Shown here: positions 7,854 to 8,231 of the stretch, piece after piece
Layout: every line of letters begins with the position of its first letter
Position numbering within the stretch: the stretch's first letter is position 1
Source: Flavobacterium limi
GTDB lineage: Bacteria > Bacteroidota > Bacteroidia > Flavobacteriales > Flavobacteriaceae
Direction of reading: 5' to 3'
Length of the DNA: 64,000 nucleotides
NCBI RefSeq assembly: GCF_010645075.1
Contig: NZ_JAADZV010000004.1
Coordinates: 310,001 to 374,000 of the forward strand
Notes under the pieces: generated by a model
What the model saw: only the letters and a program-made list of their open reading frames with translations
What the model was told of the DNA's origin: nothing
Database searches by the model: none
Position numbers and translations under genes: made by a program

Positions 7854-7898
7854 TTCAGTTCGGATATTCGGGAATTTTTGAAGTGTCTAGAATAAAAA

Positions 7899-7927
7899 AA
7901 GCCCGAAAGTTATTTTCCTTCGGGCTT
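7899..7927 (-). terminator. intrinsic terminator ending the small 8-kb element
   Basis: On the minus strand a 9-bp perfect stem (AAGCCCGAA / TTCGGGCTT) is followed by a run of T. It cannot serve the MFS gene, which has its own terminator upstream at 8232-8256, so it must end a separate short transcript or act as an attenuator ahead of rtcB. Confidence 0.85.
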
Positions 7928-8060
7928 GTTCATATATCTAAAATTGATTTGCTATGATTGAGAAAAGCCACGAAGACACATGCCAACAGAATCTGATCCT
8001 GATGCGATGTTTTGTGAGGTAAGGTTTAATACAAACATTGTCTTCGTTTATTAATAGTTA
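7928..8060 (-). ncRNA. candidate structured small RNA or leader
   Basis: On the minus strand ACGAAGACA (8047-8039) pairs perfectly with TGTCTTCGT (7978-7970), about 60 nt apart. After a one-base bulge three more pairs are possible. Inside are a hairpin CAGGAT-CAG-ATTCTG (8001-7987) and a possible ATGTTT/AAACAT hairpin (8038-8007). Together with the terminator at 7899-7927 this gives a junction-like fold of about 150-190 nt. A possible promoter lies near 8070-8105 (TTTG, 21 bases, AAAATTTG). I recognise no known riboswitch or sRNA family. It could be a free sRNA or a leader controlling rtcB-prfH. Confidence 0.45.
7952..8038 (-). CDS. possible 28-residue peptide inside the structured element
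   Basis: ATG at 8038 opens a 28-codon frame ending in TAG at 7952, 25 bases before the terminator stem. The peptide begins MFVLNLTSQNIASG and ends GMCLRGFSQS, with one cysteine and no membrane segment. No Shine-Dalgarno site is visible, which is normal in this phylum. The start codon is next to the long-range stem, so either the peptide is the product and the stem controls its translation, or the frame is accidental in a structured RNA. I recognise no family. Confidence 0.3.
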   Translation of the reverse strand: MFVLNLTSQNIASGSDSVGMCLRGFSQS

Positions 8061-8231
8061 ATTACTTATTTTCTGATGCAAATTTTGTGAATTATTTTTC
8101 TAATAAACAAATTAAATGATAAAATTTTCTTAAAATAATTTCAAAATACTGAATAACAATAAATTAAAATACAAATAAATATTTCAGAAAGTGTATAAAA
8201 TACAAGAATCTTTAAGATTATTCCAAAAAAA

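Follow-up and report, generated by a model that had tools for sequence, protein, structure and literature searches.

In Flavobacterium limi a short minus-strand unit of promoter, leader and terminator lies upstream of rtcB, and we interpret the leader, with a probability of roughly 0.8, as a ribosome-mediated transcription attenuator that controls the rtcB-prfH(-TPR) operon for RNA repair, working by the mechanism set out below. The unit occupies positions 8111-7893 of the window (the whole stretch of DNA analysed, 64,000 nucleotides) between an MFS transporter gene and rtcB. Judged from sequence comparisons, its architecture and its link to rtcB-prfH appear very well supported. We infer that the leader is transcribed and that it switches co-transcriptionally.

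Architecture of the leader and the downstream operon

All parts of the unit are on the minus strand. The promoter (8111-8079) is composed of a -33 box, TTTG at 8111-8108, and a -7 box, AAAATTTG at 8086-8079, with a spacing of 21 nt, which is of the Bacteroidota type; the -7 box has a mismatch to TAnnTTTG at its first base. The assignment is based on the position and the 20-21 nt spacing, which are kept in most relatives, and transcription is expected to start near 8073. In 74 of 84 leaders a TTTG is found 15-45 nt ahead of segment 1 (7.4 expected), and in 72 of the 84 there is a TTG 16-24 nt upstream of it.

Segment 1 (ACGAAGACA, 8047-8039) is located directly 5' of the leader start codon. The leader reading frame of 28 codons (MFVLNLTSQNIASGSDSVGMCLRGFSQS) runs from the ATG at 8038 to the TAG at 7952 and contains segment 2 (7978-7965). 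The terminator is formed by segment 3 (5' arm, 7927-7917) and segment 4 (3' arm, 7909-7899), which covary, and is followed by a U run (7900-7893). Beyond it, segment 5 (CCCGAA, 7872-7867) is complementary to segment 4 and is present in 68 of 84 leaders, where 5.2 are expected. An inner hairpin, CAGGATCAGATTCTG, is present at 8001-7987. The folding of the leader RNA of the window has a z-score of -2.68 relative to shuffled sequences, with 4 of 200 shuffles folding equally well. The preliminary description had the frame, the terminator at 7927-7899 and both hairpin stems in the right place; its promoter, put at 8070-8105, was the sole coordinate that needed correction.

The first gene past the leader is rtcB (RNA ligase, 7688-6297; Pfam RtcB, 1.7e-81), and an intrinsic terminator stands between the leader frame and this gene. 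It is followed by prfH (6282-5593; Pfam RF-1, 8.1e-25), a release-factor homologue with the GGQ motif (GAGGQHVNK), and by a gene for a TPR-like protein (5596-5036). A further promoter may lie in the interval that separates the leader from rtcB.

Association of the leader with rtcB

Across the Flavobacteriaceae, Weeksellaceae and Sphingobacteriaceae, rtcB or its operon has a homologous leader in front of it, whereas the gene upstream of the leader is not constant. These leaders have in common a Bacteroidota-type promoter, a segment 1 directly before the start codon, an open frame, a segment 2 and a 3:4 terminator. A nucleotide search of 120 relatives revealed 18 homologues in the genus, all 18 ahead of rtcB or its operon; the gene on the other side encodes an MFS protein, a response regulator or something else. 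Control of rtcB-prfH, which the preliminary description had raised as a possibility, is thereby well supported, and the conservation across Flavobacterium by which it was to be checked was found.

Other genera and named genomes were reached by RtcB-guided searches and have leaders of matching layout but different sequence. In Tenacibaculum, Polaribacter and Zobellia the leaders have 26-28 codons and end in LRDF or LQDF, in Chryseobacterium the leader has 25 codons and contains LRGLVHS, and in Myroides and Sphingobacterium there are 26-28 codons with LRA or LRG. Of 80 named rtcB loci, 75 are matched at E<=0.05 by a covariance model built from 29 leaders, and 58 score at least 50 bits; some rtcB loci give a weak match or none (e.g. 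L099, L122 and L153). In whole-genome scans all inspected matches of at least 51.9 bits adjoin rtcB, normally one per genome, and at 47.9 bits or below the matches are ordinary terminators except for weaker copies of the leader located at rtcB. The weaker matches within the same genome were considered as further copies of the leader and turned out to be plain gene-end terminators.

A strict detector of the whole architecture fired upstream of rtcB in 47 of the 80 loci and in none of 158 shuffled upstream regions, which puts the unit well outside what chance would produce. Its background, measured on flanking DNA, was one match in 1.58 Mb of other strand-bases, and this match lay ahead of a gene of the same operon: an extra leader in Sediminicola precedes the TPR gene, elsewhere the third gene of the operon. 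This copy is read, from its genomic position, as a leader following its regulon. In some loci extra genes, including a PcfJ-like one, lie between the leader and rtcB, and the leader then heads the operon.

Since the unit in the window is self-contained from promoter to terminator and is about 200 nt from rtcB, it could be an unrelated small RNA that merely neighbours the gene. This is extremely unlikely: the leader is found with rtcB in dozens of genera even though the gene on its other side differs, and it keeps to the operon after insertion of genes or separation of the TPR gene.

As stated in the preliminary description, the leader matches no known RNA family. In Rfam the window leader scored far below all cut-offs, with sub-threshold chance matches to MicC, trpB and His_leader driven by the terminator, and no match at gathering score was found at the leaders of eight related loci.

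Mutually exclusive helices

Segment 1 pairs perfectly over 9 bp with TGTCTTCGT (7978-7970) of segment 2. The overlapping stretch TCTTCGTGGCTT (7976-7965) is complementary to the terminator 5' arm AAGCCCGAAG(G) (7927-7917), with contacts at 7976-7971 and 7969-7965 and with T7970 bulged. Because segment 2 can pair with 1 or 3, and segment 3 with 2 or 4, the leader has the 1:2, 2:3 and 3:4 logic of a leader-peptide attenuator, in which 2:3 is an antiterminator that excludes the terminator and 1:2 excludes the antiterminator. The preliminary description had listed a 9-bp stem and a separate terminator; both exist, but the stem is half of a switch, as its segment 2 strand also pairs with the terminator 5' arm.

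Both helices of segment 2 show compensatory changes. In an example from other genera, segment 1 is CTGAAG, segment 2 CTTCaGGACTT and segment 3 AAGTCCGAAG, such that the layout is kept and the sequence is different. The bases flanking the GAAG/CTTC core covary in segments 1 and 2, with A-T, C-G, T-A or T-G at one position in 84 of 84 leaders and A-T or C-G at a second. The distal pairs of 2:3 alternate between GGCTT/AAGCC, GACTT/AAGTC, GGTTT/AAACC and GATA/TATC. An Arg codon has the bulged base at its third position; this base is unpaired in 2:3 and often paired in 1:2. Over 38 distinct combinations, with relatedness left in, 248 of 266 cells are paired in helix 1:2 (permuted 221, sd 3.8) and 398 of 418 in helix 2:3 (permuted 363, sd 4.1), and none of 2000 permutations was as high for either helix. 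For a comparison of sequences, the recurrence of distinct pairing solutions in different genera is a stronger argument than these permutation tests.

Mean helix energies are -5.4 (1:2), -9.7 (2:3) and -15.5 kcal/mol (3:4). In the model, 2:3 has a probability of 0.97 of forming ahead of segment 4 synthesis if a ribosome occupies the start codon; with the ribosome on the stop codon this falls to 0.04 and the terminator forms with a probability of 0.96. At equilibrium 3:4 is the most stable helix of the window leader in the model, even with a ribosome at the start, and antitermination must therefore be kinetic, as in trp. In the modelled leader without a ribosome, 2:3 is favoured before segment 4 is made, which means that transcription may continue past the terminator, and not end there, when the leader is not translated.

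The conserved structure with its terminator, and the partial conservation of primary sequence, would also be expected of a sensing RNA, such as a ligand-binding riboswitch, that carries the open frame only incidentally. We consider this quite improbable, as every divergent leader has an open frame with a fixed distance from start to segment 2, the helices are bare stems that lack a conserved junction resembling a ligand pocket, and there is the absence of an Rfam match. Among the three options of the preliminary description (sensing RNA, leader peptide or small peptide gene), the leader peptide fits best, whereas a ligand-binding RNA is not needed and a peptide gene is unlikely in view of weak amino-acid constraint.

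The leader reading frame

The frame is 24-28 codons long across relatives, with segment 2 about 60 nt into it. It is open in all divergent leaders, and its translation is predicted. Ahead of segment 2, there are no stops in the leader frame of 63 aligned leaders as against 9-17 in the other two frames, and 22 leaders that are more than 40% different from one another would all have open frames by chance with a joint probability of about 10^-12.7. Loss of the stem or frame in relatives had been named, along with absence of a transcript, as what would refute the preliminary description; stem and frame are both kept, with compensatory changes in 1:2 and an uninterrupted frame. The pN/pS is 0.76 in the Flavobacterium set and 0.60 in Chryseobacterium, which suggests that the peptide is only weakly constrained. 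Selection appears to be for translation and not for the peptide product, because the frame is never interrupted and the amino-acid constraint is weak.

The recurrence of LR near the C-terminus (67 of 73 distinct leaders) and of an N-terminal MF would suit a small functional peptide, a regulator or toxin-like, with an ordinary terminator behind it. The conserved residues, however, are specified by the codons of segment 2, a stretch that has to pair; in leaders with LQD or LWI instead of LR the RNA pairing is still kept, and one leader (L102) reads the segment-2 part in another frame. Together with the weak constraint this makes a functional peptide very unlikely.

The layout of helices is also that of a classical amino-acid-specific attenuator, in which a ribosome short of a particular charged tRNA stalls at regulatory codons and the operon is thereby switched on. 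Of 73 distinct leaders, 54 have Phe as their second codon and 93% have Phe within codons 2-12. Against this, neither a run of regulatory codons nor a residue common to all was found in the 73 distinct leaders, the central part of the peptide is entirely different from genus to genus and the rtcB-prfH operon is not biosynthetic; such an attenuator is thus unlikely. The stop codons of 38 distinct leaders are TAG (25) and TAA (13), with no TGA. Autoregulation by PrfH at the leader stop codon was considered and set aside, the absence of TGA in these 38 leaders being weak given their relatedness.

Proposed mechanism and signal

For the preferred reading, a ribosome-mediated attenuator, the steps would be as follows. 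From its start near 8073, RNA polymerase would make segment 1, the 28-codon frame holding segment 2, and then arms 3 and 4. A ribosome translating the leader through to the stop would cover segment 2, allowing 3:4 to pair and transcription to terminate before rtcB. A ribosome held at or near the start codon would cover segment 1, the 2:3 antiterminator would form, 3:4 would come too late and rtcB-prfH would be transcribed. Helix 1:2, as the anti-antiterminator, would re-set the switch. In read-through RNA, segment 5, which occurs as CCCGAA(A) or TCCGAA(A) past the U run, could pair with segment 4 and may lock it.

The likely signal would be a general failure of elongation, because the leader is without a run of one codon; this would arise when ribosomes are inhibited or have suffered damage of the kind repaired by PrfH and RtcB. 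Ribosome impairment is a probable signal given the lack of regulatory codons, what the target genes do and the location of segment 1 inside the initiation footprint. In E. coli, RtcB2-PrfH confers protection against 16S rRNA cleavage by colicin E3 (PMC9223846), and in A. baumannii rtcB is one of the two genes induced most strongly under tigecycline (PMC7652931).

A published precedent for this attenuator logic, by analogy, is PA5471.1-armZ-prfH of P. aeruginosa. There the leader PA5471.1 precedes the RtcB-like armZ and prfH (PA5470), transcription attenuation with a 3:4 terminator has been proposed, and read-through results from drugs that target the ribosome or from a premature stop codon within the leader (PMC3516279, PMC12057347, PMC13041342). 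Like the Flavobacterium leader, it is a short leader frame (about 250 bp upstream) with an attenuator before an RtcB-family gene that is followed by prfH, a likeness based on published description and gene order and not on sequence. PA5471.1 differs in having 13 codons, compared with 24-28 in the Bacteroidota leaders, in belonging to another phylum and in that the armZ product acts on the MexZ repressor.

With the trp and his attenuators the Bacteroidota leader shares a leader frame that overlaps competing 1:2, 2:3 and terminator 3:4 helices, where the position of the ribosome decides. Unlike them, it has no run of regulatory codons, its segment 1 is upstream of the start codon and so masked by an initiating or early ribosome, its target is RNA repair and not biosynthesis, and a fifth segment follows the terminator. 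In antibiotic-inducible leaders of the erm, vmlR and Bacteroides tetQ type, inhibition of the ribosome on a short leader frame switches the downstream gene by means of drug-dependent arrest peptides or translational control; the rtcB leader, in contrast, has no conserved arrest motif ahead of segment 2. The rtcBA operon of E. coli resembles it in the damage-responsive induction of rtcB, which is exerted there by a protein activator, RtcR, with sigma-54 rather than by an RNA leader.

In the open-licence literature no paper on a leader at rtcB in the Bacteroidota was found; a transcriptome paper on F. psychrophilum mentions leader-peptide attenuation for amino-acid operons only (PMC9723704). How rtcB-prfH is switched on outside the RtcR-regulated bacteria is a question to which, for much of the Bacteroidota, the leader offers a concrete answer that can be tested. 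If the reading is true, the sensor for the cell's repair system would be whether a ribosome itself succeeds in translating a short leader, and the leader would be a natural reporter of ribosome damage. An attenuator would explain the absence of a dedicated regulator at rtcB-prfH operons and would link them to the armZ-prfH attenuator of Pseudomonas. The chances are about even that widespread five-segment attenuators of the Bacteroidota sense ribosomes that have initiated and are unable to elongate, as results from decoding-centre damage, and so switch on rescue and repair enzymes, by a logic that arose independently in Pseudomonas. The covariance model and the pattern can be used to mark the regulon in unannotated genomes.

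Further observations at rtcB loci

The genes inserted between leader and rtcB include one for a PcfJ-like protein (PF14284; L066:3636-4976) and one for a protein of about 255 residues with no Pfam match (MENYTVNEYALCSRF..; L009:677-1444). In Capnocytophaga felis (L147:807-952) the leader heads a gene group containing prfH, and rtcB lies later in the same direction.

Several marine genera have a second unit of promoter, short frame and terminator about 375 nt further upstream (at about -516 from rtcB in L057; also in L056, L058-L060, L064-L066, L103 and L117). It has 16-21 codons (e.g. MPDYLNHIPDAKKLGLHRIDG) and a GGACGC complementary to the terminator arm GCGTCC, and is without a segment 1; conserved patches, AACGGACAGGA among them, occur in the roughly 200 nt that come after it.

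A sister clade (RtcB about 63-67% identical; L068-L070, L130-L133 and L135) has a different leader of 28-31 codons (e.g. MRFIKSTYQL..) with a terminator of the CCGGGTT or CTCGGGT type, located about 1.5-3 kb upstream of rtcB before an inserted gene of about 430 aa. A distant second rtcB paralogue (about 27% identity) is nearby in L055, L056, L060 and L062, and in L055 and L060 it is accompanied by nucleotidyltransferase-like genes, which suggests an RNA-repair island. In L051, the RtcB homologue G177 (about 53% identity) has five in-frame stops and is likely a pseudogene.
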